Virus record (IMG/VR): IMGVR_UViG_3300036806_000145
Location: 1-44,565 of that record
Source: a virus
Strand: one strand, 5' to 3'
Length of the DNA: 44,565 nt
Shown: positions 1,769 through 22,615 of the stretch, piece by piece
Position numbering within the stretch: the stretch's first letter is position 1
Layout: every line of letters begins with the position of its first letter
Made by a program: the position numbers and the translations under genes
The notes under the pieces: model-generated
The model's database searches: none
What the model was told of the DNA's origin: nothing
The model's input: the letters and a program-made list of their open reading frames with translations, nothing else

Positions 1769-2085
1769 CGGACCTCCTCGGACAACATCGCCGCGATCAT
1801 CGCGTTTACGATGCGACGCCGGCGGGAAAAAAGAAACCTGTGCGGGGCGTCGCGTCTCTGCGTGAACAGATTGAAGAGCAGGGTGCCAAATGGCGACGCG
1901 GCGATGTCGAGGACGGCGGTCTCGGTCACGCCCTCGCCGCCGAGCCGGCGGATCTCCGTGGCGGCCCACATGAGGAGATCGGCGTGGTACGGGTCCGCGC
2001 TCTGACTGGCGGCCGCCTCGATTTCCCGCACCGAGTACGGCGGTCCGAAATCGTTGGCGGTCTTCGTGGGGCCCTCAGTCGACAT
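1753..2085 (-). CDS. Hypothetical protein (110 aa)
   Basis: The ATG at 2085 has GGAG 4 bases upstream and overlaps the 3' end of the SbcC gene by 11 bases, as is typical of this operon. The sequence is helical and mildly acidic at the N-terminus, with an Arg-rich stretch (FSRRRRIVN) near residue 90 that could contact nucleic acid. No family was recognised. Co-transcription with sbcCD-like genes suggests a role in DNA metabolism, but this is only context. Confidence 0.6.
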   Translation of the reverse strand: MSTEGPTKTANDFGPPYSVREIEAAASQSADPYHADLLMWAATEIRRLGGEGVTETAVLDIAASPFGTLLFNLFTQRRDAPHRFLFSRRRRIVNAMIAAMLSEEVRCTSD

Positions 2086-7157: not shown

Positions 7158-7235
7158 GGTGGGTCTCCTGAAAAGTGGGCCGCGTGGCGTTTCCTGGCGC
7201 CGCGCGGCCCGTGTTGTTTCCGTCGTCAAGTCAGA

Positions 7236-7265
7236 ATCATGCGCGCCGTCGCGCGCCCCTGTCAA
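7236..7265 (-). promoter_or_regulatory. Candidate promoter for the recombination operon
   Basis: On the minus strand, -35 TTGACA (7260-7265), an 18-base spacer and -10 CATGAT (7236-7241). The -35 overlaps the stop codon of the upstream small gene. The -10 is immediately followed by the shared CNNGAWTSTGACY-type motif (within 7225-7241), a possible operator. The leader to the GTG at 7157 would be about 75 bases. Confidence 0.45.
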
Positions 7266-7408
7266 TTCTTTTTGGCCTTCCGCCGCTGCCAGTAGCGGCG
7301 CATCCCCTCGCTCATCGCCGCCCGGGCAGCCGCGTTCGGCCGACGTCGCTGTCGTCTGAGGCCGCGGCCGGCGTCGGGATACGCACGAAGGATCGCCGTG
7401 GCGATCAT
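7262..7408 (-). CDS. Small basic hypothetical protein (48 aa)
   Basis: A short ORF with ATG at 7408 in an ATGA overlap with the preceding small gene. The product is very basic, with an Arg cluster in the middle and a C-terminus MRRYWQRRKAKKN, suggesting nucleic-acid contact. It is the third of three overlapping tiny genes behind the promoter at 7710-7738. The coupled overlaps and clean boundaries are the evidence that it is real; the function is unknown. Confidence 0.5.
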   Translation of the reverse strand: MIATAILRAYPDAGRGLRRQRRRPNAAARAAMSEGMRRYWQRRKAKKN

Positions 7409-7560
7409 GGGCGGCCGCTCTTCGTGAGCCGGGCCAACCGATCCAGCGCGGCCCGGCGCCGCCGGGCGCGCGGCGTCAGCGGCAGACTCCAGAGGCAGGC
7501 ACAGGCGGCGGCGATGAGCGCGCAGCCGCTGAGGAGCGCGACGGCGGTCCCGTCCGTCAT
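7405..7560 (-). CDS. Small membrane protein (51 aa)
   Basis: ATG at 7560 overlaps the stop of the previous gene (ATGA), and its stop overlaps the next start in the same way. Residues about 5-27 form one hydrophobic Ala/Leu/Cys-rich helix, followed by a strongly basic tail with several consecutive Arg, so a single-pass protein with a cytoplasmic C-terminus is likely. No family was recognised. Confidence 0.5.
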   Translation of the reverse strand: MTDGTAVALLSGCALIAAACACLWSLPLTPRARRRRAALDRLARLTKSGRP

Positions 7561-7673
7561 CGCGCCCCTGCCAGGACGGCGACGGTGTCGACCCGAGCCG
7601 TTTCGACCATTTGGTACGCCGTCAGCGCGCAGAGGCCGACGAAGAGCGCAACCGCGAAAATGACTTTCAGCAT
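7557..7673 (-). CDS. Small single-pass membrane peptide (38 aa)
   Basis: The ATG at 7673 was chosen because AGGAGG lies 7 bases upstream; the longer in-frame reading would include the promoter. The peptide is MLKVIFAVALFVGLCALTAY followed by a short polar tail: one transmembrane helix. It is the first gene after the promoter at 7710-7738. The function is unknown; small hydrophobic phage peptides of this kind can act in host takeover or superinfection control, but nothing specific is shown. Confidence 0.55.
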   Translation of the reverse strand: MLKVIFAVALFVGLCALTAYQMVETARVDTVAVLAGAR

Positions 7674-7686
7674 GGCGTGACCTCCT

Positions 7687-7703
7687 GTCAAGTCACAATC
7701 AAG
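7687..7703 (-). promoter_or_regulatory. Putative operator, copy of a shared 13-base motif
   Basis: On the minus strand it reads CTTGATTGTGACTTGAC, positioned at the expected transcription start of the promoter at 7710-7738. Closely related sequences occur at 7225-7241, 40238-40250 and 42698-42709, each in the 5' region of a minus-strand gene. A repressor or activator site is inferred from position and recurrence. Confidence 0.4.
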
Positions 7704-7709
7704 TTGGAG

Positions 7710-7738
7710 AGTGTAGGCGCCTGGCCCCAGGATGTCAA
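7710..7738 (-). promoter_or_regulatory. Strong sigma70-like promoter
   Basis: Minus strand -35 TTGACA (7733-7738), a 17-base spacer and -10 TACACT (7710-7715). It lies between a strong terminator for the upstream unit and three tiny coupled genes, so it starts a new transcription unit that probably continues into the recombination and replication genes. It is the best consensus match seen in the window. Confidence 0.7.
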
Positions 7739-7754
7739 ATCGCGCGGAAACGCG

Positions 7755-7794
7755 GTGTAAAAACAACGGCCCGGCCGGAGGCGATCCGGCCGGG
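7755..7794 (-). terminator. Strong rho-independent terminator
   Basis: Minus strand: an 11-bp GC-rich perfect stem (7784-7794 pairing with 7766-7776), a loop of about 7 bases, then a run reading GTTGTTTTTA. It lies 26 bases after the gene at 7821-8132 and ends the tail/lysis-side transcription unit just before the promoter at 7710-7738. Confidence 0.85.
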
Positions 7795-7820
7795 CCGAGG
7801 GAGTGCGCGCGTGGCGGGGG

Positions 7821-8132
7821 TTACGACGGACCGGCGCCCGAGGGCGGCGGCGGCGCGAGACTCGGATCGTCGGCGACGCGGGTCGCGATGATGTCGAGCG
7901 CCACGGCGTGATTGCCCGCCGCGATCGCGGCGAAGTCGTCATCGCTGTACGGCGTGCCGTCCGCTTTCCGCGGCAGCGCGGCCGTCGCGGTCGCGACGAA
8001 GTTCTGCGCGGAATTCTTGATGGCCTGGAGCTGCGGATCGTTGCTCGCGATGCCCTGCTCGAGCGCGGCCAGATCTTGCAGGGCCTTGAGGAGCTGTTGA
8101 TTCGTGACGGTAACGCCGGCGACTGTGACCAT
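7821..8132 (-). CDS. Hypothetical protein, last gene of the late unit (103 aa)
   Basis: The ATG at 8132 has AGGAGG about 9 bases upstream. The product begins MVTVAGVTVTNQQLLKALQD and is helical, Ala-rich and soluble, ending in a Pro-rich tail. No motif was recognised. It follows the membrane protein at 8162-9112 and precedes the terminator. Confidence 0.6.
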   Translation of the reverse strand: MVTVAGVTVTNQQLLKALQDLAALEQGIASNDPQLQAIKNSAQNFVATATAALPRKADGTPYSDDDFAAIAAGNHAVALDIIATRVADDPSLAPPPPSGAGPS

Positions 8133-8161
8133 GACTGCGGGCCTCCTGGGAAACCTGAACG

Positions 8162-9112
8162 CTACCGCGCGAACGCGCACGTCGTGCCGAGCATCGGATC
8201 GCCGCCGCCGAATCCCGGCGACGTGATGTCCATCAGCAGATTGACGATGCCGGAGATGAGGCCGGTCCAGTTGAACCCGCCGCTCTTCGAGAGGCCGAGC
8301 AGCACGTTCAAATCGGCGAGGATGGGATCGACTTCGGCCTTCACGGCCGCATAGGTCGTCAGCACCTTCGTCAGAATCTTTGTGTTGGTGCGATCGAGAC
8401 CTTGCGCGGCCTTGATGATGCCGGCGCCGAACGTGTGATGCACGTCGGCCGGCACGGCGCCGGTCTTGTTCAGGGCGAGCTCGTAGAGGTTGACCTGCTT
8501 CAGCAGGTCCAGCGCGCCGCCGATGTCCTGATACGCGCGATAAATGGACGCGCGGACATCGAGGTCGGTCGTCGCCGTGACGGTCGGCAATGCCGGCGGG
8601 ATCTGCGTGGTCTTCGAACAGCTCGAGGCCAGGCCGCCGGCGAGGCCCACGCACGTCACGAGCACGACGATCTTCGCGGCGCGAATCGCGCCGGCCGTCG
8701 CCGACATCGGCGTGGTCAGCCCGTTGGACACCCACGAGTAGACGCCCGAAGCCGAGGCGCCGTTGTACAGGGCGTTGAGGACCAGCGTGGTCGTGGTGCC
8801 CGGCAGCGTGTGGAGCAGCTTGTTCGCGATGAGCGTGAACACGATGGTCCAGAGCTCCGTGTAGATCCACAGCGGACACCAGCCAAACCACTTGTGCGTA
8901 CCGACGGCGCGCTGCGTGAACGCGGTCGCGCCAATCGACAAGGTGATGATGCCGGTCACGCTGCCGAGGAGCGACAGCAGGCCGGGATCGAGACCATCGG
9001 TCGGCGCCGCTCCCGCCGAGGCCACGGCCTGGGCGAACACGACCGATCCGCCAATGGCGCAGAGGAGCAGGAGCAGGGCGAGCACGAAGCGGAGCCAGCG
9101 AGTCACAGCCAC
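8162..9112 (-). CDS. Multi-pass membrane protein, holin-like N-terminal half (316 aa)
   Basis: GTG at 9112 was chosen because GGAGG lies 5 bases upstream; the longer reading adds only a non-typical N-terminus. Predicted membrane segments are at about residues 9-29, 45-65, 82-100 and 147-163. The fourth ends in LAGGLASSC, which looks like a small lipoprotein signal placed inside the chain. The last 150 residues are soluble and helical. The position near other membrane and lytic-type genes makes a holin-like role possible. The arrangement looks like a holin-like protein fused to a lipoprotein-like one. Family unknown. Confidence 0.5.
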   Translation of the reverse strand: MAVTRWLRFVLALLLLLCAIGGSVVFAQAVASAGAAPTDGLDPGLLSLLGSVTGIITLSIGATAFTQRAVGTHKWFGWCPLWIYTELWTIVFTLIANKLLHTLPGTTTTLVLNALYNGASASGVYSWVSNGLTTPMSATAGAIRAAKIVVLVTCVGLAGGLASSCSKTTQIPPALPTVTATTDLDVRASIYRAYQDIGGALDLLKQVNLYELALNKTGAVPADVHHTFGAGIIKAAQGLDRTNTKILTKVLTTYAAVKAEVDPILADLNVLLGLSKSGGFNWTGLISGIVNLLMDITSPGFGGGDPMLGTTCAFAR

Positions 9113-9148
9113 GGGAGCCTCCAGGGAAAGCGGGCGACAGTCTAGCAT

Positions 9149-10681
9149 TTACGCGGCCGGCCGGAGCGCGAACGTCAGCGCCGCCGGGAGCGGCCAGGAC
9201 GCGACGGTCGGCACACTCACGAGCTGGTAGCCGAGGCCACTCAAGTACTTGCCGTTGGCGAGGATGGCCGCCGTCGTCGTCTGGCCGTGCGTCCAGCGAT
9301 AGGTCGCCGTCTCGAACGCGTTGAAGACGGTCTCGGCCGGCAGGTCGACGGTGTAGCGGGTCGGGGTGCTGACGTCGGCGAAGACGCACGCCGTCGCCCC
9401 ATCCTGCGGACCGCCGGTGACCGGGACCATCGCCGCGAGGCCGAGGCTGCACTTGCCGGACGTCGGCATGTCCGCCGGTTCCGTCCAGGTCGGCAGCAGC
9501 CGATCGGCGATCTGCCACACCTGCATCCAGCTGGTGGCGTCGCGCGCGAACGTCGGGGCGTAGTCGTTATGTTCGGCGTCCCAGGTGCCCGACACGATCG
9601 CCGGCGTCGGCACCGCGCCCGGATCGTCGTCGGCGAATTCTTCGAGATAGACGTTGACGGTCTTTCCCGCGTCCGACTGGAACCAGCCCGCGCCGGAGAG
9701 ATCGCCGCCGCCGGCGAATGCCCACCCGTTCGGGAGTTCAAGATTGATGACGCAGGTCGGACAGGCCGCGCGGTCCGCCAGGAGGAGATTGACGAGCGTT
9801 TGATTGCTGGTCTGGTACGGCGCCGCGTTCGCGATCGGAATGATGGAGTCGAAGCCGGGCCCGAGCTGGATCCATTGCGTGAGGTCGCCGCTCGGATAGG
9901 CGCGCAGCGCGGCCATCTGCGGGCCGACTTGCTGCGCGACGGTGCCGAAGTCGATCTCGTCGGCGCCCTGCATGTAGAAGACCATCAGCCCGGCGCGGGC
10001 GGCCTCGGCGACGCGCGCGACGATCGTCGACGTGTCGCCGGTCGCCGCGTACGGCGTCGCGCCTGGAAAGCGCGCCGTCGTGTCGGTCCAATCGTTGTTA
10101 CAGGCGGTGCCGTCTGGATAGGCGACGCCGTCCTCTGTGTAGTGACAATCGATCGCGAGGACGATCGCATTGCAGCCGGCGGCTTTGATGCTGTCGTAGA
10201 CGGCTTGTCGGTCGGCGGGATCGCTCAGCATCCCGGTTTCGGCGCCGCCGAACGACGGCACCGCGCCGAGCTGCTTCGTCGTCACGGTCACGCCCTGGAA
10301 GCACGGGCGCGCGTGTAGGAGCTGGTCGCGCGACGGCGGCGGCGGGAGCGGCAGCGTCGCGGGCGGCAGTTTCTCGATCGCGAGCGTGACGTGGTTCGAG
10401 AGCAGTGACGCCGGCGCTTGGGTGGCCAGCATGTAGCCGTCGCACTGCGCCGTCGCCCGGTCCGCGTTGACGAGCGCCTGCGGCGTGGTGAAGGTGGCCG
10501 ACGCGACCCCGGTCGACGACACCATCACATTGCCGGGAATCGCCAGGGTGTATTGGCAACTCGTGGCGCCCGACGAGTTGTCGACCGTCACGACCGATGT
10601 CGGCAGCGGTTGCGGCGTCTTGACGACGCACGCCGAGAGCGCGAGAGCACAGAGGACGACGAGCAGGGATCGCGCACGCAT
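9149..10681 (-). CDS. Putative secreted lipoprotein (510 aa)
   Basis: ATG at 10681 has AGGAG 8 bases upstream. The N-terminus MRARSLLVVLCALALSAC is a classical lipoprotein signal with lipobox LSAC and the lipidated Cys at residue 18. A beta-rich region (to about 100) is followed by a Pro linker and a region of about 350 residues. That region contains AGCNAIVLAIDCHY and alternating strand/helix character, suggestive of a TIM-barrel or hydrolase-like domain, though no catalytic motif could be fixed. It sits between a small gene and the holin-like gene. Surface display on the infected host, cell-wall action or receptor masking are possibilities; none is shown. Confidence 0.65.
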   Translation of the reverse strand: MRARSLLVVLCALALSACVVKTPQPLPTSVVTVDNSSGATSCQYTLAIPGNVMVSSTGVASATFTTPQALVNADRATAQCDGYMLATQAPASLLSNHVTLAIEKLPPATLPLPPPPSRDQLLHARPCFQGVTVTTKQLGAVPSFGGAETGMLSDPADRQAVYDSIKAAGCNAIVLAIDCHYTEDGVAYPDGTACNNDWTDTTARFPGATPYAATGDTSTIVARVAEAARAGLMVFYMQGADEIDFGTVAQQVGPQMAALRAYPSGDLTQWIQLGPGFDSIIPIANAAPYQTSNQTLVNLLLADRAACPTCVINLELPNGWAFAGGGDLSGAGWFQSDAGKTVNVYLEEFADDDPGAVPTPAIVSGTWDAEHNDYAPTFARDATSWMQVWQIADRLLPTWTEPADMPTSGKCSLGLAAMVPVTGGPQDGATACVFADVSTPTRYTVDLPAETVFNAFETATYRWTHGQTTTAAILANGKYLSGLGYQLVSVPTVASWPLPAALTFALRPAA

Positions 10682-10692
10682 GGGGAGCACTC

Positions 10693-10959
10693 CTATCGAA
10701 ACTTCACGCCGTTCGAGAGCGGCGGATGGCCGCCCGTGTTCGAGTCGACCATCGTCATCCGGCCGAAGCGCGAGCCCGCCATGCGCGGCTGTTCGATCCA
10801 CGCCTGCTGCTGGAAGGCCCGGCGATCATTGACGAGCGTGGGCCGCGTCCACCAGGAATCCGGCGGCGCGGTCGCGCGCCGCCGGTCCTCGAGCTCCGCA
10901 TTGCTGACGTCGCGCGCCACGACGTCGGTCGCCTCGCGCGGCCGCGCCAGCCGGCTCAT
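10693..10959 (-). CDS. Hypothetical protein (88 aa)
   Basis: The ATG at 10959 is in an ATGA overlap with the stop of the DUF5675 gene. The product is Arg-rich and polar, with a Trp-containing middle (PPDSWWTRPTLVNDRRAF) and no membrane segment. It ends 11 bases before the lipoprotein start. No family was recognised; coupling with the DUF5675 gene suggests they act together. Confidence 0.55.
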   Translation of the reverse strand: MSRLARPREATDVVARDVSNAELEDRRRATAPPDSWWTRPTLVNDRRAFQQQAWIEQPRMAGSRFGRMTMVDSNTGGHPPLSNGVKFR

Positions 10960-11426
10960 GCGGTCGCCGCCGGATCGCGCACGTCGATAAACACCGGCCG
11001 GCCCGCGAGCAGCGCCTTCTCGACTTCCGGCTGCCATACTTCCTGCGCTGAGACACTCTGCCATACGCCCGTCGCGTCGGCCGTCATGCCGGACATCACG
11101 CAGCCGCGCACGTCGGCGATGGTGTTGCCCGGGTGCATCTCGATCGCGTCGCGGCCCGGCACCGCCAGCACATGCGGGAGCGCCCGACGAAAATGATCCG
11201 AATAGAGGACGACCAGGGGATAGTGGCCCGCGAGGATCGCGCACTGGTCCGGCACGTTCACGCGGCCGTCAACGGTCTGGCGCGGCAGTTCGAGCGTCTT
11301 ATACGTCGCGGCCGCGAACGGGGTATCGACGCCATACGCGTCGAGGGCCGGCACGGTGAGCGTCCCGAAGGTCGGCGCCTTCGGATCTGGCGTGCTGCGT
11401 TGCAGGGTGAGGTAGTACGGCGTCAC
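10956..11426 (-). CDS. DUF5675-family protein (156 aa)
   Basis: GTG at 11426 overlaps the upstream stop (GTGA). Family hallmarks are visible: an N-terminal strand pair with FGTLTVP; a cytidine-like CAILAGHYPLVV; then a VPGRDAIEMHPGN block at about residues 95-107 and a conserved GC (RGCVMSG). DUF5675 proteins are widespread near phage tail and lysis genes and their activity is not settled. The location among membrane-anchored late genes agrees with that. Family assignment is good, biochemical role unknown. Confidence 0.75.
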   Translation of the reverse strand: MTPYYLTLQRSTPDPKAPTFGTLTVPALDAYGVDTPFAAATYKTLELPRQTVDGRVNVPDQCAILAGHYPLVVLYSDHFRRALPHVLAVPGRDAIEMHPGNTIADVRGCVMSGMTADATGVWQSVSAQEVWQPEVEKALLAGRPVFIDVRDPAATA

Positions 11427-11761
11427 TTGAGCAACCCCAGTGTGTGCAGCAACCACACGAACCCGACGACCGCGCCCGTCGCAATGCCGATGTAGAGCCG
11501 CAGGCTTTTGACCGTGACGGGCGTGCCCTGCAGGACCAGCGAGCGAATGTCATGCGTGTGGCCGGCGACCGTGCCGCTCAGCGTGGTCGCGGTCGCCATG
11601 AGCGAGCGGATGTCGGTATCGAGCCGACCGAAGTTGCCGATATTCTGCGAATGTCGCTCCGTCTGCTGTTCCTTTTGGTCGTCCAGGCGGCGATGGACGT
11701 CTTGAAAGCCTCGCGCGATCTGGTCTCGCAAAATTTCCACCGTGGGATCTCCTGGTGACAT
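11423..11761 (-). CDS. C-terminally anchored coiled-coil membrane protein, XhlA-like in layout (112 aa)
   Basis: ATG at 11761. The first 80 residues are polar and heptad-like (IARGFQDVHRRLDDQKEQQ). The last 23 form a hydrophobic helix (IGIATGAVVGFVWLLHTLGL). This layout, soluble coiled coil plus C-terminal anchor, resembles XhlA-type accessory proteins that work with holins, but sequence identity to that family is not obvious. It is coupled by GTGA to the DUF5675 gene. Confidence 0.5.
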   Translation of the reverse strand: MSPGDPTVEILRDQIARGFQDVHRRLDDQKEQQTERHSQNIGNFGRLDTDIRSLMATATTLSGTVAGHTHDIRSLVLQGTPVTVKSLRLYIGIATGAVVGFVWLLHTLGLLK

Positions 11762-11785
11762 AGCAGCGACTCCGTGAAGGCGTTT

Positions 11786-12298
11786 CTACTTTTTCGGCGC
11801 GTCGACCAGTTTCCACGTCGACGTGTCAAGCGTCTTGCCGGGATTGGCCTTTTCGACCTGGCTCTTCACTTGCGCGACGACCACGGCCGGAGCCTGGAGC
11901 TGGCCCTTGAGGAGCTCGCCCTGCAGATCGCCAAGGTCCGCGCGACAGTGGCCCAGCGCTGCGATCTGATCGCCGAGTGTCGCGCGCAGCGCGGCGATCG
12001 TCTGCTCCGGGTTCGCCGGCAGCGCGCGCAACTCTGGCAGATCGGCGCAGATTGGGGATCCTCCAGTGCCCTCGAGGCAGACCTGCGCGACGGACGAATC
12101 GGCTGGGATCGTCACGATCTTGCCGTCGGCCGAGAGATGTACCGCGACCACGTGGTCTGGCAACGGCACGATCTCGAAGTCGCCAGCCGGTTTGATGCCC
12201 TGCGCGTGCAGGTGTGCGATCAGAAAACAGGCGGCCGCGAATAGCCAGGCCGCGATCAATGCGTATGGCGCCCACCGAAGTTCTCGCGATCGTGTCAT
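11786..12298 (-). CDS. N-terminally anchored periplasm-facing protein (170 aa)
   Basis: ATG at 12298 has AAGGGAG 5 bases upstream, inside the intergenic gap after the adhesin stop. A basic start is followed by a membrane segment at about residues 11-32 (YALIAAWLFAAACFLIAHL), then a soluble domain with a Cys pair and a helical, Gln-rich C-terminal third. The type II membrane layout would suit an inner-membrane spanin or other envelope protein. No outer-membrane partner or nested gene was found, so spanin is only one option. Confidence 0.5.
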   Translation of the reverse strand: MTRSRELRWAPYALIAAWLFAAACFLIAHLHAQGIKPAGDFEIVPLPDHVVAVHLSADGKIVTIPADSSVAQVCLEGTGGSPICADLPELRALPANPEQTIAALRATLGDQIAALGHCRADLGDLQGELLKGQLQAPAVVVAQVKSQVEKANPGKTLDTSTWKLVDAPKK

Positions 12299-12308
12299 GT
12301 CTACTCCC

Positions 12309-15299
12309 TTACTGCCCGAACGCCCACCAAAGAATCTTGTCGCTCGTGACTGTCGTCGCCGAGATAGTACACCCCGTCGTCGAGGTCGCCGTCTGCGTGA
12401 AGAACACCGGGGTCGTGATGTCCTGCGCCACGCAGATGTAGCCGTTCGCGACCGTGGGCAGTCCGCTCACCGCGACCGAACACGTGCCCGTCGCGCCCGA
12501 GAGGAACTGGCCGCCCGTCGTGCCGCCGGCCTGCGACGTGAAGCTGCAGCCGGTGAGCGTCGGGCCAGTGCCCGTGGCCGTCAGCGTCGAGCCGACGACG
12601 CGGATCAGGCCGGCGCCGCCCATCATCCGCAGGCGCTCGGTCGAAGACGTCTGGAAGATCACATCGGCGTCGGTGCCGTTCGCGCTCGCGCCCGTGCCGC
12701 CGATGCCGCCCGCGATCGTCAGCGCGGCGCCGTTGCCGCCCGTTCGCGTGCCGGACGCCCCGGTCGAGGCACCGCCGTTTCCACCGCGGATCGTCGTCCC
12801 GGCGCCGTCGCCGCCTGTGCTGCCCGTGCCGGACGCGCCGCCGCCGTCGCCCCCTTGGAACGTGGACACGCCGCCGTTGCCGGCCGTGCCCGAGTTGACC
12901 GAGTTGGCTTGGCCGTTCCCGCCGCCGAAGACACCCGTGCCCGCCGCACCGACCGTCGTCGTTCCGGTCGTCGTGCCGCCCATACCGCCGCGCGCGGTGA
13001 GATTGCCTCCTGCGCCGCCCGTGCGCGTGCCTGCAGCACCCGAGGAGTTGCCGCCGTTGCCGCCGCGCACCGTCAACACGGCACCAGCGCCGCCGATCTG
13101 CGTGCCGCCGGTGCCGGACTCGTTGCCGCCGTCGCCGCCGTTGAGTGTCGCCGCCCCTCCGGGGCCGCCGTTCTGGCTGTTAAACGTGTTGTTGAAGCCC
13201 GTGCCGCCGCGCAAGGTCATCGGGCCGCCCTTGCCGATCGTCGTGGTGTCGATCCCGTCGCCGCCAGCAACCACGACCGATCCCGATCCGGACGTGTTAT
13301 CCGAGGAGCCGCCTTGCAGCGTGACCGTGCCCGGTGTCGTCAGATTCCCGGTCGTGCCGCTCGTGATCGTGATCGCGCCGGTGGACCCTGACGAACCCAC
13401 GCCCGCTCCGGTCTTGATCGAGACGGCCCCGCTTGCGCCGCCATTCGAGCCGGCGATCCCCGTGATCACCCCAAACGTGCCACCGGCACCCGCGCCCGAG
13501 GCTCCGGTGCCGGTCGTCATGGTAATCGCGCCGCCAGCATTCCCTGCGCCGCCGCCACTGCCGCCAGCGTTGCCGGCTGTGATCAACACGGGCGATCCCG
13601 TCGCACCGACGTTGGTCGCCCCGGCTGAATTGCCGGCGGTAATCGTGATCGTGCCGCCCACGGCCGCGCTGCCTCCTGCGACGCCCGCGCCGGACGTCAT
13701 CGTGATCGCGCCGCCGGTGTGGCTCGTGCCGTTGCCGCCCGAAGCCGTGATCGTGATGGCGTTGCCGTTCGCACTCGACGGCGTGCCGGACGCGATGGCG
13801 AGCGCGCTCGCCACGTTCGAGCTGATCGTGTTGGCGAACAGCGTGCTGGAGCTGTAGGTCAGGACACCCGTGTCGCACGCGCCAAAGGCGCTCGACACGT
13901 TGCACTGAACGTCGCCGCTTGATCCGCCTGGCGAGCCGCCCCCGCCGCCACAGGCCGATCCGGCGTCCACCAGGTTTCCGCTCGCGTCGATCGAGACGCA
14001 GTGGCCGGACGTCAGCGCGCCGCTCGTGGTGCCGAACGTGGTCGTGTTCCCGCTCGCCGCGCCGATCGTGATGTCCGCGGCGCCGTTGCCGATGACCGGC
14101 GCGTTCGCCGTCAGCGCGCCGGCCGTATGCGTGACGGTCCCGCTGCCCGAGCCGCAGGCCGACCCGGCGTCGACGAGGTTGCCGCTGACGTCGAACTGCA
14201 CGCAATCGCCGGACGTGAGCGTGCCCGTCGTCGTGCCCAGGACGGTCGTGCTGCCGGAGAGCGTCGCTGAGAGCTTCGATAGCGCGATCGATCCGGCCAG
14301 CATCGTGTTGGTGACCTTGCCGGCGCCGATCGTGGTCGCCAGCGTGCCCGACGTCGAGACGTCGCCGCTGAGATCGCCATTCGTGATCGAGCCGATGCCC
14401 GACCATTTCGTCAGGTTGCCAGACGCAGGCGAGCCGGTCGAAGAGACGCCGCCGGCGGCCGGCCCAACGCCGCAGGCCGCGGTCCATGACAGGACGCCAG
14501 CGCTGTCGGTGATCTGACAGTCCGAGGCCCCGTTGATGAGATGAATCTTGCCGCTCGTCGGGCTGCCGCCCGTGCCGACGCCAGCTGGGCCGGCCTCGAC
14601 GATGGCGTCGGCGCCGTTCCCGCCAGGATTGCCGCCACCGTCGCCGCCCTGGCCACCGATGAGGTAGGCGTTGCTTCCCGTTTCACCAGGAAAGATCGAT
14701 CCGCCGGTCGCGCCCTTGGCGCCCTGCAGCGTCGCGGTGCCAGGCGTGCCGCTCAGGCCCGTGGTGCCTGGCTTGATGAGAATGGACCCAGAGATCGCGT
14801 TGATCTGCGTCCCGCCGCTCGCGATGGTAATCGCCCCTGACCCGTTGCCAGATCCGGTATTCGATCCTGACGTAATGGACAGCGCACCGCTGGGGCCGCC
14901 GGAGGCGCCGCCTGACGTCGTCATTGTGAGCGCGCCGCCGGATCCGTTCACGCCGGCGCCGCTGCCGGTCGTCAGCGTGATCGCGCCGCCAGTTGTGTTC
15001 GCGCTGCTCGGCGCAATGGCATTGCCGGCGGTGATGCTCACCGAGCCGCCGACCGCGTTGCCGCTGGCGCCTTGAGCGTTGCTGCCGACGATCGTCACGT
15101 TGTTACCGGCATTGGCCGAGCCGCCGCCGGCCGGTGTGCCGCCGGCGATCGCGAGGGGGCTGGACGGGTTCGAGTGAATCGTGTTCACGAACATCGTGCT
15201 CGAGCTGTAGGTGAAGACGCCGCTGTCGCAGGCGGCCAGCGCCATCGACACATTGCACTGGACGTCGTTGCCGGAGCCACCCGCGGCGTTCGACCCCAC
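12309..15299 (-). CDS. Large Gly/Ser/Thr-rich polyglycine-type tail adhesin, main reading frame
   Basis: This is the main body (996 codons from GTG at 15299) of a tail-fibre or adhesin-like protein. It holds two homologous modules beginning VQCNVS.A..ACD.GV.TYSSST, then many GG(A/N)(I/L)T(M/I)T.G units. From about residue 700 come GGxGGxx stretches resembling the polyglycine-II sandwich of phage S16-type adhesins. The C-terminus (GPTLTGCSFTS onward, with several Cys) resembles the C-terminal domain of other tail fibres. The frame is open upstream of 15299 but has no start codon. The true N-terminus is probably the signal-peptide frame at 15541, one base out of register. Host binding is inferred. 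Confidence 0.7.
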   Translation of the reverse strand: MGSNAAGGSGNDVQCNVSMALAACDSGVFTYSSSTMFVNTIHSNPSSPLAIAGGTPAGGGSANAGNNVTIVGSNAQGASGNAVGGSVSITAGNAIAPSSANTTGGAITLTTGSGAGVNGSGGALTMTTSGGASGGPSGALSITSGSNTGSGNGSGAITIASGGTQINAISGSILIKPGTTGLSGTPGTATLQGAKGATGGSIFPGETGSNAYLIGGQGGDGGGNPGGNGADAIVEAGPAGVGTGGSPTSGKIHLINGASDCQITDSAGVLSWTAACGVGPAAGGVSSTGSPASGNLTKWSGIGSITNGDLSGDVSTSGTLATTIGAGKVTNTMLAGSIALSKLSATLSGSTTVLGTTTGTLTSGDCVQFDVSGNLVDAGSACGSGSGTVTHTAGALTANAPVIGNGAADITIGAASGNTTTFGTTSGALTSGHCVSIDASGNLVDAGSACGGGGGSPGGSSGDVQCNVSSAFGACDTGVLTYSSSTLFANTISSNVASALAIASGTPSSANGNAITITASGGNGTSHTGGAITMTSGAGVAGGSAAVGGTITITAGNSAGATNVGATGSPVLITAGNAGGSGGGAGNAGGAITMTTGTGASGAGAGGTFGVITGIAGSNGGASGAVSIKTGAGVGSSGSTGAITITSGTTGNLTTPGTVTLQGGSSDNTSGSGSVVVAGGDGIDTTTIGKGGPMTLRGGTGFNNTFNSQNGGPGGAATLNGGDGGNESGTGGTQIGGAGAVLTVRGGNGGNSSGAAGTRTGGAGGNLTARGGMGGTTTGTTTVGAAGTGVFGGGNGQANSVNSGTAGNGGVSTFQGGDGGGASGTGSTGGDGAGTTIRGGNGGASTGASGTRTGGNGAALTIAGGIGGTGASANGTDADVIFQTSSTERLRMMGGAGLIRVVGSTLTATGTGPTLTGCSFTSQAGGTTGGQFLSGATGTCSVAVSGLPTVANGYICVAQDITTPVFFTQTATSTTGCTISATTVTSDKILWWAFGQ

Positions 15300-15541
15300 C
15301 CATCCGGTGTTGGTCGCGACGCCGGTCGCCTTGACCCACAGGAAGCCAGTCGTGCCCGTGTTCTGCAGGTAGAGATCGCAGGGCGAGCCGACCTTGGCGC
15401 CGTTCGGCGCGACGCTGTCCGGCGCGAGGTCACGCCGATCTGGCCGAGGAGAATGTCCGTGAACGCGCCGGGCGCCTGAGCCTCCGCGCGAGCCGGGATG
15501 AGCGAGACGAGCAGCAACGCCAACCAGAAGATGCGTCTCAT
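15185..15541 (-). CDS. Signal-peptide N-terminus of the adhesin, out of frame with its body
   Basis: ATG at 15541 has GGAGGG 9 bases upstream. The first residues MRRIFWLALLLVSLIPARAE form a textbook Sec signal, followed by AQAPGAFTDILLGQIGVTS. Near 15428 the sensible sequence moves to the -1 frame, where LAPDSVAPNGAKVGSPCDLY and onward joins the adhesin body without interruption. The remainder of this frame down to 15185 is Arg/Ser-rich and looks non-coding. A single missing base near 15428 would explain it: sequencing error, real mutation or recoding. Confidence 0.55.
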   Translation of the reverse strand: MRRIFWLALLLVSLIPARAEAQAPGAFTDILLGQIGVTSRRTASRRTAPRSARPAISTCRTRARLASCGSRRPASRPTPDGWGRTPRVAPATTSSAMCRWRWPPATAASSPTARARCS

Positions 15542-15542
15542 G

Positions 15543-18542
15543 TTACGAAGCCCTCCGCACGCGGACCGAAAAGACGAACCCGGTGCTGCTCGCGATCTTT
15601 GCCTTGATGCCGTAGTTCTTCGCGACGCCAGGCGCCGCCAATCCGACGCCCGCAGACAAGATCGTCACGCTGACCGCCCGGTCGCGCGTCGTGTTCGAGA
15701 AACTCGCTTCCGCGATCGGCACGTTCGGCGCGTCGTCGAGATTGAAGAGGCCGACCGTGATGAGTGCGCCACTCGGGGAATAGCCGTCGAGTTCGAAGGC
15801 GTACGTGCCGAGCAGGTTGGTCGAGTCGACGAGCCACTTGTTCGAGTCGGGGAGGCGCACGTCGCCCGTGGCATAGGCGGCGTTCGACAGCGGATTGGCC
15901 TCGCTGCCCCCGAAGAACCACGTCACTGCTGCCAGCATGACAATCTCCGAATCATTGACCGCGGTGCCGCGGACTCCGAGCGAGACGCGGTACGCGTCCC
16001 AGTCGGTCGTGATGCTCCGCACCTGTAAGAGTTCGCCGGACCAGCCGCCCGCGCCGGCGCCATCGGGGCTGCTGACGGGGACCAGGTCGCCAAATTTATA
16101 GCCCGCGCCGCCGACGCCAAATAGCCCGGTCGAGACGCGCGCGTCGCGTGGCGCCGGCGCCGCGCGCGCCATCAGGCGCGTCGCGAGGGTGAGGACCGTG
16201 GCCGTGTCGCGGCGCGCGAAGAAGATCAGATTTTCCGCGCTGGTGATCGTCAGGCCGCGCGCGTTCGAGACGCCGGCGGTGTTGGTCAGCGTGAAAGTCT
16301 GCGGATTGCCGAGCGTGCCGCTCGCGTCGAAGGTCGGCGCCCAGGTATAGGTCAGCTGGTTGAAGAAATGATCCGGCGTGACTTGGTCTTCCCAGGAGAG
16401 CGACAGCTTTTCGATCTCAAGGGCCTCGGTCAAGGGTAGGTCGGATCGAATGGGCGCGGCGGGGTTCGGCGGCTCGCCCACGAAGACCAGCGCGCCATCG
16501 TCGTCGAACCCTTGGGCACAGTCGCACTCGGTGGCGAGAAACGAGATTAGATCGGCGCAGGCGATCGGCGCCGTGAGCGCCCACACGCCGACGTCGGCCG
16601 GCAGCACGGCCGCATTGAACGTCAGCACATTCGAGAAGCTGGTCGCGTTGCGCGAGGCCCGGCCATCCCCGTAGGCCGGGATCGCGGCGGCCCACGGCCC
16701 GCCGGCGTAGACGGGGAGGCCCAGTGCGAGCGGCCCGATCTCGTTGTCCCACACGTGCGCGGCCTGGTCGGCCAGGCGCGTGAGGAGCGTGCCGCTGCTG
16801 TCGCCCACGGATTCGACGCCATCGAAATTCGCCCACAAGCTCACGGTGCCGGCGGCGAGCGCCATCGCGAGCGCATCGGTCGCATAGACCAGCGTCCACG
16901 GTCGACCGTTGATGACGCGATAGGGCGTGGCGCCCCACCGCGCGACGAAGCCGGTGCGGCCTGGCGCCGAGATCTGCGTGTCGTCGAGGGCGGCGAGCGG
17001 GGTCACGAGGCCGCTGCTGTCGCGGCTGTACAGCGTGAAATTGCCCTTGACCGCATTGGCCGAGACTTCAAAGGCCAGGGCCCACGGCTGCCCCGTGAGA
17101 TCGACCCACGGGCCGCCGACGTTGATGAGCGGGACCATACCTTTCGCTGGCGCCGTACTCGGGGTGGGTGCCGAGCCGTTCAGCGCGAAAAACCACGCGA
17201 GCAACCCGCTCCCGCCCCAGGGCGTGATCGTCGCGGTCTGCCCGTTCTGATACGGCGCGCCGACCGCCATGTGGTACACCTCGTTGGCCTGCGCGAAACT
17301 GGTGCCCGCCATCGTGTACGTGCCCGTCTCGTTGCCGGCGTCGTAGAGCTGCACCAGGCCATCGGAGGAGGGCGTGAAGACGGACCCATCGATCGGGAGC
17401 GTCGTCGGCGCCGACCAGGTCGATCCGTTCGTGAACGGATAGAGGGTCGCCACAAGTCCGGATCCGCCGGCCGTCGTCACGTGTCCGGTCAGCCCCGCGA
17501 GATAGGGCGCATTGGCCGAGGCTCCGGTCCCGGGCACGGGGAAGGTGAACGACGAGACGACTTCCGCGTAGTCGACGCCGCCGAGCGTGTAGATGCCGCC
17601 CTGGCTGCCGGGGTTGTACAGCAAGAGCATGCCATGCGCGACATTCGAAAAATCGACGTCCAGCGAAATCGGGACCTCCGCGCCCCACGTGTCGCCGACG
17701 AGGCCGAAGAACCAGGCGAGCAACCCCGATCCGCTACTCGTGATGAAGTGCGCGGTCTGGCCGGCCGAGTACGGCATGCTCACGCTGTGCCCTTGCGTGA
17801 TGACGACTTCCCCCTTTGTCACGCCGTTGATCTGAATCTGGCACGGCTGGTCGCCCGAGTTGTACAGCGTCAGCAGCCCATCGGTCGGCAGGGTGAAATC
17901 CGCATTGAACGTCGAGAGCGAGACGGCCGACTGCCACTGCGTCGGCGTGCCGGGCCCGCCGCCGCTCGCCGGCTCGTCGGACCAATGCCCGTAAAACCGG
18001 CGCCCGGGCAGATCGAGCGACGAGCTGGGCGCGTTCCGAAAGAAATCGCCGAGGCGCGGCTGCGGTACGGTGGTCGTGCTCAGCGAGGCCAGTAAATCCC
18101 ACGAGTCGAATTGCAGCAGGCCGCCCGCGAGCGCGCGATAGGACTTGATGAGCCCGTGCCAGTTGGGCGCGGGCGCGATGCCGTTGAGCCGATCGGTTGT
18201 GAGGCTGAAATCGATCGAGACCTCGAGGCCGAAGGCATTTCGCAGCCGCGCATCGGTGAACCAGGCGCGGAGGACGCCGGTCGGGTCGGCGACGGTGATC
18301 GACATCGCCGCCGCTTCGGATCGGCCCTTGATGTCACTCAGCGTGCGCGAGTTCTGCCCGAACTTCTGCACGCGCGCCGGCTTCGGACCGCCCGCGTAGG
18401 TGCTGGGATACGGGATGACCTCAGCGGCCATCTGCACGACGATCGGCGTGCCGGTGCCATCGAGATTGCGAATGGTCCACCACGGCAGCACGCCGACGCT
18501 CGCCGCCCAGGCCATCCCCTTCGTGATCGTCGAGATCGCCAT
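15543..18542 (-). CDS. Tail-tip/baseplate hub protein with tandem repeat insertion (999 aa)
   Basis: ATG at 18542 directly follows the distal-tail gene, the usual place of the hub or central-tip protein. The N-terminal 240 residues and the C-terminal half (ADLISFLATECDCAQGF, then a strand-rich region ending in YRVSLGVRG) look like a tail hub. Between them, at about residues 205-465 (nt 17150-17930), lie three imperfect repeats of about 85-90 residues. Each has a DGLL.LYN-like strand, a (G)PY..GQTA-like turn and GSGLLAWFF. These are beta-sandwich-like and may be carbohydrate-binding. Receptor contact is inferred. Confidence 0.7.
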   Translation of the reverse strand: MAISTITKGMAWAASVGVLPWWTIRNLDGTGTPIVVQMAAEVIPYPSTYAGGPKPARVQKFGQNSRTLSDIKGRSEAAAMSITVADPTGVLRAWFTDARLRNAFGLEVSIDFSLTTDRLNGIAPAPNWHGLIKSYRALAGGLLQFDSWDLLASLSTTTVPQPRLGDFFRNAPSSSLDLPGRRFYGHWSDEPASGGGPGTPTQWQSAVSLSTFNADFTLPTDGLLTLYNSGDQPCQIQINGVTKGEVVITQGHSVSMPYSAGQTAHFITSSGSGLLAWFFGLVGDTWGAEVPISLDVDFSNVAHGMLLLYNPGSQGGIYTLGGVDYAEVVSSFTFPVPGTGASANAPYLAGLTGHVTTAGGSGLVATLYPFTNGSTWSAPTTLPIDGSVFTPSSDGLVQLYDAGNETGTYTMAGTSFAQANEVYHMAVGAPYQNGQTATITPWGGSGLLAWFFALNGSAPTPSTAPAKGMVPLINVGGPWVDLTGQPWALAFEVSANAVKGNFTLYSRDSSGLVTPLAALDDTQISAPGRTGFVARWGATPYRVINGRPWTLVYATDALAMALAAGTVSLWANFDGVESVGDSSGTLLTRLADQAAHVWDNEIGPLALGLPVYAGGPWAAAIPAYGDGRASRNATSFSNVLTFNAAVLPADVGVWALTAPIACADLISFLATECDCAQGFDDDGALVFVGEPPNPAAPIRSDLPLTEALEIEKLSLSWEDQVTPDHFFNQLTYTWAPTFDASGTLGNPQTFTLTNTAGVSNARGLTITSAENLIFFARRDTATVLTLATRLMARAAPAPRDARVSTGLFGVGGAGYKFGDLVPVSSPDGAGAGGWSGELLQVRSITTDWDAYRVSLGVRGTAVNDSEIVMLAAVTWFFGGSEANPLSNAAYATGDVRLPDSNKWLVDSTNLLGTYAFELDGYSPSGALITVGLFNLDDAPNVPIAEASFSNTTRDRAVSVTILSAGVGLAAPGVAKNYGIKAKIASSTGFVFSVRVRRAS

Positions 18543-18546
18543 CTGC

Positions 18547-19356
18547 TTAGATCGTCCCCCACGGGCGACCCTTGGCGACTTCAATGAAGCCCATGAGCAG
18601 CGACCGGATCCCAGTCTCGACGTCGGTGTACAGATAGTCGGCACTGTTGGCCGTGTTCCAGCGCACGAGCCACGAGTCACTGAGCGTCGTATCTTTCGGC
18701 ACGATCGGCGTGGCCAGGTCGATACCGCCGGTCGCCTGTTGCCAGGCATCGACGGCATCGGCGACGGTCTGGTCGTAGAGCACTGTGCCCGCGAAATGCC
18801 GGCGGCGGCCGTAGCTCCGCATGCCCATCTGGACCTCGGCGGCGGTGACGATCGGCGCGATCCGCGGGCGATGCGCGCCCCACTGCGACCCGAGGCTGAC
18901 GTGGTGCGGAAAGACGCGCGTGATCGCGCTGGCCTTCAGCGCGCCGCCGATGAGGTTGTCCGTGTTGCCGGTCAGCGCGAGGCGCTCGTACCGCCGATCG
19001 GGGCCGCCGCTCGTGTCGACCCACAGGCCGGGATAGTAGCCCTCGGTGTCTTTGACGCCCACCGTGAAGGCATAGGTCTCGAACGTGCCGAAGGCCACGT
19101 CATCGCTGCGGAGCCAAGTCGCCGCGCCCTGGACGTTCCAGTGAATGAGGTTCACGAGGCCGCCGGGCGACGCGATGGTCCGGTCCCATTGCAGGGTCAG
19201 GGCCGTGCTCGGCGTCATAAATGGATTCGCCGGATTGTCGTCGAAGAGATTGGGGTACGGGAAATTGGCATCCGGCGCGCCGACGACGAACGTCGGGACG
19301 AGGCTATGAATCCAATCGTCGGACGGGAACGCGTAGAGCAGGCGCGGGTCAGCCAA
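18547..19356 (-). CDS. Distal tail/minor tail protein (269 aa)
   Basis: The start is TTG at 19356, overlapping the tape-measure stop by 8 bases, with AGGGGAT upstream; an internal ATG start would lose a conserved-looking N-terminus. The protein is beta-rich with many Trp and aromatic residues (WGAHRPRIAPIV, FETYAFTVGV). It sits between the tape measure and the hub, where the distal tail protein belongs. No specific motif was identified, so the name rests on synteny. Confidence 0.65.
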   Translation of the reverse strand: MADPRLLYAFPSDDWIHSLVPTFVVGAPDANFPYPNLFDDNPANPFMTPSTALTLQWDRTIASPGGLVNLIHWNVQGAATWLRSDDVAFGTFETYAFTVGVKDTEGYYPGLWVDTSGGPDRRYERLALTGNTDNLIGGALKASAITRVFPHHVSLGSQWGAHRPRIAPIVTAAEVQMGMRSYGRRRHFAGTVLYDQTVADAVDAWQQATGGIDLATPIVPKDTTLSDSWLVRWNTANSADYLYTDVETGIRSLLMGFIEVAKGRPWGTI

Positions 19357-22300
19357 GTTTGATCCCCTGCTGAGTGAAAATCGGCTTCACCACGCGATTG
19401 ACGACGGCGGTCTTCAGCCGGCTGCTGGCGATGATGGCATCGACCACTTCCTCGGCCGCTTCGAGTGGCGTCTTGCCCTGGTCGCTCACGGTCACGTTGT
19501 CGAGATGCACGTGCAGGTGGATCTCGTCGCCGCTGCCGCCGCCGGCGTTGGCGAGCGGCGTCGCCGTGGCCCCGATGCCCGCCGTCAGCTTCGGCATGCC
19601 GTAGATGTCACCCGGCCGCAGCAGGACCGCGCCGGGCCCGGTGACCGCCATCAGCGGCGAGTCGCCGACCGGCAGGCCCCAATCGTTGCTGTCGGGATCG
19701 AGCGGCCCGCCGGCGCCGCCAGTGACGTCGCTCGCGCTCGCGCCGCCCTTGGCCGGCGCGCCGTTGTCGCCGCCGCCGTTCACGGCGTAGTTGACGGTCA
19801 CGGTCGGCGACGGCAGGCTATTGAGCGCCGGCGTCAGGCTGTTCGTCAGCTTGTCGACGAGCGTGTCGATTTTGTCGATGAGGGTTTGGAACTGCTCATC
19901 GAGCGTGGCCGAGAAGCTCACGCCGCTGAGGTCAGTGATCTTCTTGCCGTTCGAGTCGACCGCGTCGCCCATGTCGATCATTTTTTGGAGGATCGGCTTG
20001 AACTGGTCCGGCAGCGAGGCGCCGGTCGCGATGGCGTCGTTCAACAGCTGATTGAGGCCGGTCGCGTTGCCCGCCGCGTCGAGGAGCTCGCCGCTCATAT
20101 CGCTGACGGTGTCGTTCATGGTCACGCCGGCCTTCGTCAGCCGCGTGTAACTGCTGATCAGATCTTGCGCTTCGGCCGTGAGGTTCTGCTGTTTCCACGC
20201 GGGCCCCAGCTGCTGGATCGTGACGTGGTACTTCGAGATGTCGGCGTTCAGATCCTGCTGCGTCTGCGCGTTGTCGGCCTGGTCCTGCGCGAGCTTCGCC
20301 GCGGCCGCGTCGGCCTTGTTCAAATAGTCCGTGACCTGGCCGATGATGGCCTTGGCCTGGTCGGCATTGCCCTGCCCGACCTGGCCGAGTTTCATCCACA
20401 TCGTTTCGCCGGCGTCGCCCGTCGCGTCGAGCTTCGCGTGCAGCGCGTCGTACCCGCCCATCGAGTTCGCGAACGCGGTGACCGCGTCGCGGCCCGCCGT
20501 CGAGCCGATGCCGAGCGCGCTGCCGATGGCCTTCCCGATCGAGACAATCGAGCCGACGATGCCGATCACGCCGCCGATGGTGCCGAGGAGCGACGTCGCA
20601 TCGTGGACGTCTTGCAGACTCTTGACGAGCTGGCCGCTCGCCGAGATCGCATCGCCCATGCCCTTGACGAACGAGCCGACGAAGCCCGGCAGGTCCGCGC
20701 CGATGCTGGAGACTTCCGACCCGATCTGCGCGAGGCCCGAGGCCCACTGTTGAAAGCCGGCGTCGGCCTTCGCGCGCTGCTCGAGCTGGTCGACCTCGAT
20801 CAACGCGATGGCGTAGTCCTCGGCGCCGAGCTGGCCCGAGGCCCACGCCGCGGCCAGCGCCGCGCGCTGCTGATTCGCCTTCACCGTGATCTGATCGGTC
20901 ACGGTCGTGAAAACGGCGCCCCATTGCTGCCCGAGATTCACGAGCTGGTCGAGGCCGGTCTTCATCGAGTCCCACGCGTGACTCGCGGCGAGATCCGTGG
21001 CCTTCTCATTGATCCCGACGAAGTGGGTCTCGGCCTTTTGCGCCTGCTCGTTCAGCTTGGCGATGGCGTCCGCGATCGTGGCCGACTTGAACGCGTCGTC
21101 GATGTCATAGACGCGATTCGGAATCGCGGCGAGCGGGATGTCGAGGTTCGTCGCTTCGACCGCGGCCTTGTGGGCGGCCGCGCCGAATTCGTCGGTCACT
21201 TCCCGCAGGCTATCGCCGTGCTCAAGCGCGTTCTTGATCTCAATGTCGAGCAGGCCGGTCGCTTTTTCCCATTCGCCGATCTTGAGCGCCCGTTCCTGGT
21301 CGGCGGCGCTCGCCTGCGCGGTCGCGCCGACGCCGGCGTGCACGGCCGCCGTGTGCTCGGTCTCGACGGCCGTCGCGTTCTGCATCTTCGTGGCGAGGTC
21401 TTGCAGCGTCTTCGCCCAGCTGGCGGCCTTCGTGTCCCACGCGACGCCGGCCGCGATGTCTTGCGCGGTCGCGTCGGCGTGCGACTTCACGCCGGCCGTC
21501 ATCGCCTTCAACGCATCCGTGACGAGATTGGCCGCGAAGACCGACGTCTTGCTGAAGCCGTCAGTAATTTCGTTGGCGATGGCCATCGCCTGCGCGACTT
21601 CGAGCACTTTCTGGACGAGCAGATCCTGGGCGACCGTGACGACGTTGTCGGCGGCCGCGATGTAGTAGAGGGACGTGCCGAGGTAGTCCAGCGCCGTGAC
21701 CGACACGCCGGCGCCCTTCACCAGCCCGATCGCGAACTTGTCGATATAGCCGGCGAGCAGGTTGACCGTCTGCTGGCGGTCCGTCCCGAACGTCTGCAAC
21801 AGCGCTTGGTCGATGGCCTGGAGGGCCGTGTTCAGCGCGGGGCTCTTCGCCGCGGCTTCCGAGAGCGCGTCGACAAAATTCGTGAGGCCGACCTTCGCGA
21901 GCGTCAGGCGGTCTTGGAAATTGAGGGATTGGGCGCCGGCCTCCTGGATTTTCTCGCTGAGGGTCTTGAGGAGCGCCGCGCGCCGATCTTCGACGCCGGC
22001 CTCCGTCTGCATCGACGAGCCGAGCGCTTTGGTCGCGCCGCCGAGCGCATCGGTCGCCGTCGTCAGATCGACGAAGACGCCGAGCTCCGGGCCGAGGCCA
22101 CGGGTGCGCCCCGTGGTCATGGCCTCCATCAAATCCTTGTACGCCTGCGCGGTCCCGCCCTCGAGGCCGACGCGCTTCGCCAGCACGACCGCGGCCTCGC
22201 CGACCGTGGCCATGTCGGAAGCGGTCGCTTGCCAGCCGGCCGACAGCGCCTTGTTCGCGCTCTGCATCAGCGTGAGATCGCTGACGAGGCCCATCGTGCT

Positions 22301-22615
22301 GGTCCGCAGCGCGTTGATGGCCTGGCCGTTCGTGCCCATCGACGCCGTGAGCGACGTAAAGTTGTTGCTGATGTCCTCGACTTCCGAGCCGTGCGCGCCG
22401 AGCTCGACGATCGTCGCCGTCAATCCGGCGATGACGACGGCGCCGGCGGCGATGGCGGCGCCGCCGATCTCGACGGCGGCCGGGATCTCCAGGCCGAACA
22501 GATCGGTAATCTGGCCGCCGACGTCCTTCGCGAGGTCGGCCGCGCGGCCGAGGCCCGCGCTGAAGGTGTCATTCAGCGAGAGCGTGCTGGTCAGATCGCC
22601 GACGGAGATGGCCAT
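19349..22615 (-). CDS. Tail tape measure protein (1088 aa)
   Basis: The length sets siphovirus tail length; 1088 residues predicts a tail of roughly 150-170 nm by the usual 1.5 angstrom per residue rule. It begins MAISVGDLTSTLSLNDTFSA and has hydrophobic, membrane-prone helices at about residues 50-75 and 690-725 (GTIGGVIGIVGSIVSIGKAI). Between them are long Ala/Gln-rich helices. It lies directly after the gpG/gpGT pair and before the distal tail gene, the canonical order. The assignment is firm. Confidence 0.9.
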   Translation of the reverse strand: MAISVGDLTSTLSLNDTFSAGLGRAADLAKDVGGQITDLFGLEIPAAVEIGGAAIAAGAVVIAGLTATIVELGAHGSEVEDISNNFTSLTASMGTNGQAINALRTSTMGLVSDLTLMQSANKALSAGWQATASDMATVGEAAVVLAKRVGLEGGTAQAYKDLMEAMTTGRTRGLGPELGVFVDLTTATDALGGATKALGSSMQTEAGVEDRRAALLKTLSEKIQEAGAQSLNFQDRLTLAKVGLTNFVDALSEAAAKSPALNTALQAIDQALLQTFGTDRQQTVNLLAGYIDKFAIGLVKGAGVSVTALDYLGTSLYYIAAADNVVTVAQDLLVQKVLEVAQAMAIANEITDGFSKTSVFAANLVTDALKAMTAGVKSHADATAQDIAAGVAWDTKAASWAKTLQDLATKMQNATAVETEHTAAVHAGVGATAQASAADQERALKIGEWEKATGLLDIEIKNALEHGDSLREVTDEFGAAAHKAAVEATNLDIPLAAIPNRVYDIDDAFKSATIADAIAKLNEQAQKAETHFVGINEKATDLAASHAWDSMKTGLDQLVNLGQQWGAVFTTVTDQITVKANQQRAALAAAWASGQLGAEDYAIALIEVDQLEQRAKADAGFQQWASGLAQIGSEVSSIGADLPGFVGSFVKGMGDAISASGQLVKSLQDVHDATSLLGTIGGVIGIVGSIVSIGKAIGSALGIGSTAGRDAVTAFANSMGGYDALHAKLDATGDAGETMWMKLGQVGQGNADQAKAIIGQVTDYLNKADAAAAKLAQDQADNAQTQQDLNADISKYHVTIQQLGPAWKQQNLTAEAQDLISSYTRLTKAGVTMNDTVSDMSGELLDAAGNATGLNQLLNDAIATGASLPDQFKPILQKMIDMGDAVDSNGKKITDLSGVSFSATLDEQFQTLIDKIDTLVDKLTNSLTPALNSLPSPTVTVNYAVNGGGDNGAPAKGGASASDVTGGAGGPLDPDSNDWGLPVGDSPLMAVTGPGAVLLRPGDIYGMPKLTAGIGATATPLANAGGGSGDEIHLHVHLDNVTVSDQGKTPLEAAEEVVDAIIASSRLKTAVVNRVVKPIFTQQGIKLG

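Follow-up and report, generated by a model that had tools for sequence, protein, structure and literature searches.

The window analysed here is a whole stretch of viral DNA of 44,565 nucleotides (IMG/VR record IMGVR_UViG_3300036806_000145, positions 1 to 44,565). Positions 12309-15541 hold two open reading frames (ORFs), of 118 and 996 amino acids, which both lie on the minus strand but in different frames; the shorter begins with a Sec signal and the longer is glycine-rich (Table 1). They stand behind a tail hub-like gene in the late operon, that is, in the position of a tailed-phage fibre, and the ATG of the signal ORF (15541) is one base past the stop codon of the hub gene. Elsewhere in the window, all on the minus strand, we noted an SbcC-like and SbcD-like nuclease pair (2075-5775; PHROG, 7e-29 and 4e-8), a 510-aa protein with a lipoprotein-type N-terminus (MRARSLLVVLCALALSACVVKT) and no family match, downstream of the fibre-like gene (9149-10681), a DUF5675 protein in the presumed lysis region (10956-11456; Pfam, 4.6e-17), and the major capsid protein (28194-29195), which shows ~43% identity to Roseobacter phage RDJL types and 91% to the IMG/VR contig L003. 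The nearest phages by major capsid (L003-L007) stop short of the slot or, in the case of G004, hold a different, signal-less protein of 225 aa there. The capsid-related phage G004 (L008) further encodes two small signal-bearing proteins downstream of its tail genes (10559-11077 and 11346-11816, both minus strand), each with a close Cys pair by eye.

Table 1. Features at and around the fibre-like gene of the window. Frame A is the frame of the ATG at 15541 and frame B that of the 996-aa ORF; L068, L077 and L078 are records compared in the text.
Feature	Position	Strand	Basis or remark
Tape-measure-like protein	19349..22615	-	homologous to L078 tape measure, E 5e-18
Tail hub-like protein, next gene upstream	15543..18758	-	homologous to L077 hub, E 7e-8; true start probably internal to ORF
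118-aa ORF	15185-15541	-	ATG 15541; begins with Sec signal MRRIFWLALLLVSLIPARAEAQ
Frame A: Sec signal peptide (MRRIFWLALLLVSLIPARAEA|Q) and linker start (APGAFTDILLGQIGVT)	15432..15541	-	
Coding switch from frame A to -1 frame B (frameshift)	15427..15438	-	codon log-odds, optimal switch point
Conserved ~45-aa phage tail module (PNG..VG.PCDLYLQNTGTTGFLWVKATGVATNTGW), in frame B, for the most part ahead of annotated GTG	15291..15431	-	alignment, AF2, BFVD
996-aa ORF, fibre-like protein body	12309..15299	-	GTG 15299 to stop 12309; 14 Cys in 7 close pairs
Internal repeat, first copy (GNDVQCNVSMALAACDSGVFTYSSSTMFVNTI)	15168..15272	-	sequence
Internal repeat, second copy (GDVQCNVSSAFGACDTGVLTYSSSTLFANTI)	13815..13916	-	sequence
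Gly-rich repeat region, residues 700-880	12660..13202	-	GG.GG and interspersed short strands
C-terminal beta domain	12312..12659	-	two Cys pairs; by eye like C-terminal end of signal-bearing L068
170-aa protein, next gene downstream	11786..12298	-	N-terminal membrane segment
112-aa protein, holin-like by position	11423..11761	-	C-terminal membrane segment

The Sec signal is in frame A, while the 996-aa ORF is in the -1 frame relative to it. Codon log-odds, trained on the large minus-strand ORFs of the window with the body of the studied gene included, strongly favoured frame A from 15541 to ~15432 and frame B from ~15430 on, and third-position GC changed frame at the same place. A two-frame model scored 58, while frame B on its own scored 26 and frame A on its own -52. 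The stretch of frame B ahead of the GTG at 15299 (DLAPDSVAPNGAKVGSPCDLYLQNTGTTGFLWVKATGVATNTGW) codes for a conserved module, described below; therefore the true gene exceeds 996 aa, its start being the signal peptide. Neither a slippery heptamer nor a homopolymer of at least four bases was found near the switch point. The locus is thus one gene split by a -1 frameshift just past the signal, arising from a real mutation or an assembly error. Because signal and body are in different frames, the window copy may be dead or the contig sequence may be wrong. The original prediction was of a single protein with an N-terminal Sec signal; the signal and the Gly-rich ORF are both real, but they have no common reading frame here. 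Gene callers will misplace the starts of such genes when a frame break parts signal from body.

Signal peptides were graded with a home-made heuristic rather than with SignalP. By this score the window signal was the best Sec-type N-terminus of the late region (4.69, compared with 4.39 for OmpA, 3.12 for MalE, and -0.79 for T4 gp37 as controls), and 9 of 296 background ORFs scored at least 3.0. The window signal (sequence ARAEAQAPG) has no Cys, and a lipobox with a +1 Cys is absent from it. The N-termini of the signal-bearing forms described below have the properties of signal peptides in common (a K/R n-region, a hydrophobic core, small-x-small, and Gln near +1), not a common sequence.

The conserved module was predicted by AF2 as a confident small beta domain (pLDDT 90.8). 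Its top structural matches in BFVD (E 0.012 to 0.037, probability 1.00) were a phage pectate-lyase-family protein, an uncharacterised phage protein, and a protein of Acinetobacter phage IMEAB3, and no credible match was found in the PDB. A degenerate DNA pattern for the last part of the module identified 61 IMG/VR stretches, 37 of which align with the window module at 28-53% identity; with that of the viral contig L078 the identity is 41% over 44 aa (pairwise E 5e-6). The module is also present in tail-region proteins of cultured phages, with no signal in the annotated examples checked.

A signal peptide and the module stand in one frame in the independent uncultured viral contigs L019, L077, and L078/L079, the last two being closely alike. 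L019 was found by the module pattern alone. When an Ala-Gln codon pattern was required 66-96 bases before the module, exactly three viral contigs were returned (L077, L078, and L079), all with signal and module in one frame; being preselected by these codons, they give no frequency. Scans with the GCCCAG and GCTCAG codon patterns gave no additional cases, and the genome-contig matches of the pattern were set aside since, by eye, they had another architecture. Signal-like N-termini were also seen in L023/L069, L064, L068, and L057, with the module near the C-terminal end or in mid-protein. In a set of 48 module-bearing ORFs, collected with no requirement for a signal, ~6 carry one, compared with 9 of 296 background ORFs (p 0.01). 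In addition to the homologies in Table 1, the tape measure of the window matches that of L077 (3e-9), and the hubs of L019 and L077 match each other (1e-9). The signal-bearing gene follows the hub directly in the window and L078, and after one gene of ~165 aa in L019 and L077. In L019 and L077, the interval from the hub to the lysis genes shows no separate fibre gene of the ordinary kind, which rather speaks for a role in the virion.

The L077 protein matches the Mtd second domain (Pfam, 2e-9), FGE-sulfatase (Pfam, 7e-8), and a PHROG tail protein (1e-18). This gene (6870-8549, plus strand) places a signal peptide on an Mtd-like, C-type-lectin-type phage protein. As for a DGR, no reverse transcriptase and no long repeat were detected in the 32-kb L077 contig, and reverse transcriptase PF00078 was absent from eight records, mostly fragments. 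The L078 protein carries Laminin_G_3 (4e-14), a LamG-like lectin domain. In L095, a hub of the lambda J type (PHROG central tail fibre J, 3e-11) is followed by two consecutive signal-bearing fibres (4795-11400, plus strand), the second of which has the module at ~residue 906 and matches to tailspike/tail fibre PHROGs. L095 is one contig of a genome selected from the same phylum (Acidobacteriota) as a Candidatus Solibacter MAG; because a MAG contig can be a mis-binned phage, its link to an Acidobacteriota host is tentative. The C-terminal parts vary, from the Mtd second domain and FGE/C-type-lectin part of L077 to LamG in L078, a tailspike type in L095, and Gly-rich repeats with a Cys-paired beta domain in the window. 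Phage receptor-binding proteins vary in this way. A type-I signal peptide at the N-terminus of the body's own frame was found in L019, L077, L078, and L095, and not in the window. A fibre-type protein bearing a Sec signal is a real architecture, in frame in L019, L077, and L078/L079 and also seen in L095, but not in the window copy itself.

A working signal would have the protein fold in an oxidising compartment. Of the 15 Cys of the window body, one of which is in the module, 14 lie in seven close pairs (p 0.0002). The cut-off for the gap was picked after the window had been viewed, and the test was redone on nine other signal-bearing fibres with several cut-offs. At a gap of <=20, these nine fibres had 76% of their Cys in pairs, where 36% was expected (reached in 0 of 2000 shuffles), whereas in 33 signal-less module fibres 36% were paired, versus 32% expected (p 0.23). 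The two sets differed in pairing by Fisher's test (5e-7) and, per protein, by the Mann-Whitney test (p 0.003, gap <=22); the difference was present at cut-offs of 16-40 and gone at 8-12. Mean Cys content did not separate signal-bearing from signal-less fibres (p 0.27), and pairing alone did. The paired Cys support genuine export into an oxidising compartment.

The GGxGG-rich stretches of the 996-aa ORF had been likened to polyglycine-II receptor-binding tips. Their enrichment is genuine, with 12 motifs versus 4.0 expected, a number reached in 2 of 2000 composition-preserving shuffles, and Gly makes up 25% of the ORF overall and 34% of residues 700-930. The polyglycine-II assignment is not supported. 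Gly peaks at 31 of 73 residues (42%) in any 73-aa stretch and its longest run is G5, at residue 451, outside residues 700-996; the sandwich of S16 gp38 has >50% Gly and runs up to G8 (PMC6851490). Hydrophobic strand motifs lie between the GG turns of the Gly-rich region, and by its sequence this arrangement looks more beta-solenoid-like than polyglycine-II. A PDB sequence search with the 996-aa body, including the solved gp38, gave no match at E<=1, and a single-sequence AF2 model of residues 700-996 (pLDDT 45) was too poor for use. The window body is Gly-rich, and a polyglycine-II fold is not demonstrable in it. No homologues of the body were found in PHROGs, Pfam, PDB, INPHARED, or IMG/VR, and a match to a Cylindrospermopsis phage was weak (E 8). 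As no family matches the body, the case that it binds a receptor is built on its position, the module, and the relatives.

We favour, with about even confidence, the interpretation that a single late phage gene fills the tail-fibre slot at this locus and encodes a modular receptor-binding-type protein with a cleavable Sec signal; this gene is frameshifted here, and the protein of its relatives is exported and acts outside the cytoplasm. The structure of the gene, its change of frame, the recurrent architecture, the place behind the hub, the receptor-binding-type domains of the relatives, and the pairing of Cys were all observed, whereas the export, the disulfides, and the biological role are what we infer. 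In the intact relatives the protein would be made together with the tail proteins, exported through Sec, and oxidised in the periplasm into disulfide-linked beta modules. Its action outside the cytoplasm would most likely take place at the envelope of the host or in the lysate, where it might bind the surface receptor or debris that the virion also binds, so that receptors would be masked or loss of progeny prevented. Display on the host surface or the blocking of receptors, as in the original prediction, may be its role.

The main alternative, in our judgement somewhat unlikely, is that the protein is the virion's own receptor-binding fibre, exported through Sec, folded with disulfides in the periplasm, and joined to the tail hub at lysis. 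In its favour are the fibre slot behind a homologous hub, the Mtd-like, LamG, or tailspike-type domains of the relatives, the Cys pairing, which fits periplasmic folding, and the fact that L019 and L077 show no further fibre gene from the hub to the lysis genes; however, the hub itself could hold the receptor-binding part, the contigs are incomplete, and we know of no precedent for a tailed-phage fibre assembled after lysis. We consider unlikely an extracytoplasmic maturation of tailed phages, in which some of them (one case in an Acidobacteriota genome contig) would route their virion receptor-binding fibres through Sec, with disulfide-linked folding in the periplasm and attachment to tails only at lysis. 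An ordinary tail fibre assembled in the cytoplasm, with a hydrophobic N-terminus that serves as a virion-attachment or oligomerisation helix and resembles a signal, is more doubtful still. It would explain the fibre slot and the fibre modules, and the module proteins Loki gp21, Sour gp22, and C171 are signal-less and lie in tail regions, but the N-termini share the properties of signal peptides and not a sequence, and the paired Cys are confined to signal-bearing forms.

Taken literally, the ORF table contains two unrelated products, an exported 118-aa protein (15185-15541) and a signal-less 996-aa protein from the GTG at 15299. We regard this as very unlikely: the codon bias of frame A collapses after ~15432, frame B is coding from there, long before the GTG, and includes the conserved module in this upstream part, and the relatives have both parts in one frame. 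A programmed frameshift yielding a short and a long product has the least to commend it and seems extremely improbable, for although the shift is -1 and falls in the linker between signal and body, there is no slippery heptamer near the switch and the relatives need no shift.

The cytoplasm is where tail fibres are expected to be produced and put together, and we found no report of signal-bearing tail fibres in the open-access PMC literature. A recurrent signal-bearing, Cys-paired class of receptor-binding-type proteins in the fibre slot would mean either that these phages secrete copies of their own adhesins, or that the assembly of some virions ends outside the cytoplasm.

In phage lambda, lom adjoins the central fibre gene J, and Lom is a small exported outer-membrane barrel. 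The protein described here would likewise be exported and its gene lies directly downstream of a hub/central fibre gene, but it is a modular fibre rather than a small outer-membrane barrel. Cor-type proteins are superinfection-exclusion lipoproteins that act on the phage's receptor. Llp of T5 is an exported phage protein for which receptor masking is established (PMC9586334). Llp and Cor, as phage-encoded exported proteins acting on the phage's receptor, provide a model for receptor masking; they are short lipoproteins, whereas a type-I signal and a modular protein of ~1,070 aa are found here. The gp38 polyglycine-II adhesins of T2/S16-type phages have a Gly-rich distal part and GG motifs, as does the window protein, which differs from them in its Gly content (42% at most), the lack of long Gly runs and of a sequence match, the interspersed strands, and the signal peptide. 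Acinetobacter phage Loki gp21, Gordonia phage Sour gp22, and Pseudomonas phage C171 carry the same P-E/N-G...LYVKESG..NTGW module; in proteins of this type the module is usually at the C-terminal end, there is no signal, and Cys are unpaired in the signal-less set. The L077 protein is akin to the major tropism determinant (Mtd) of Bordetella phage BPP-1, and to further phage receptor-binding proteins of the C-type-lectin kind, in its Mtd second domain, its FGE/C-type-lectin C-terminus, and its fibre slot. The differences are the signal peptide, the lack of a reverse transcriptase in these contigs, and, for the window protein, the lack of an Mtd or lectin match. Phage DGR target proteins were without signal peptides in a survey, which counted this absence in favour of a phage origin for variable receptor-binding proteins (PMC6199706). 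The signal-bearing fibre-type protein recurs, in intact form, across several uncultured phages.
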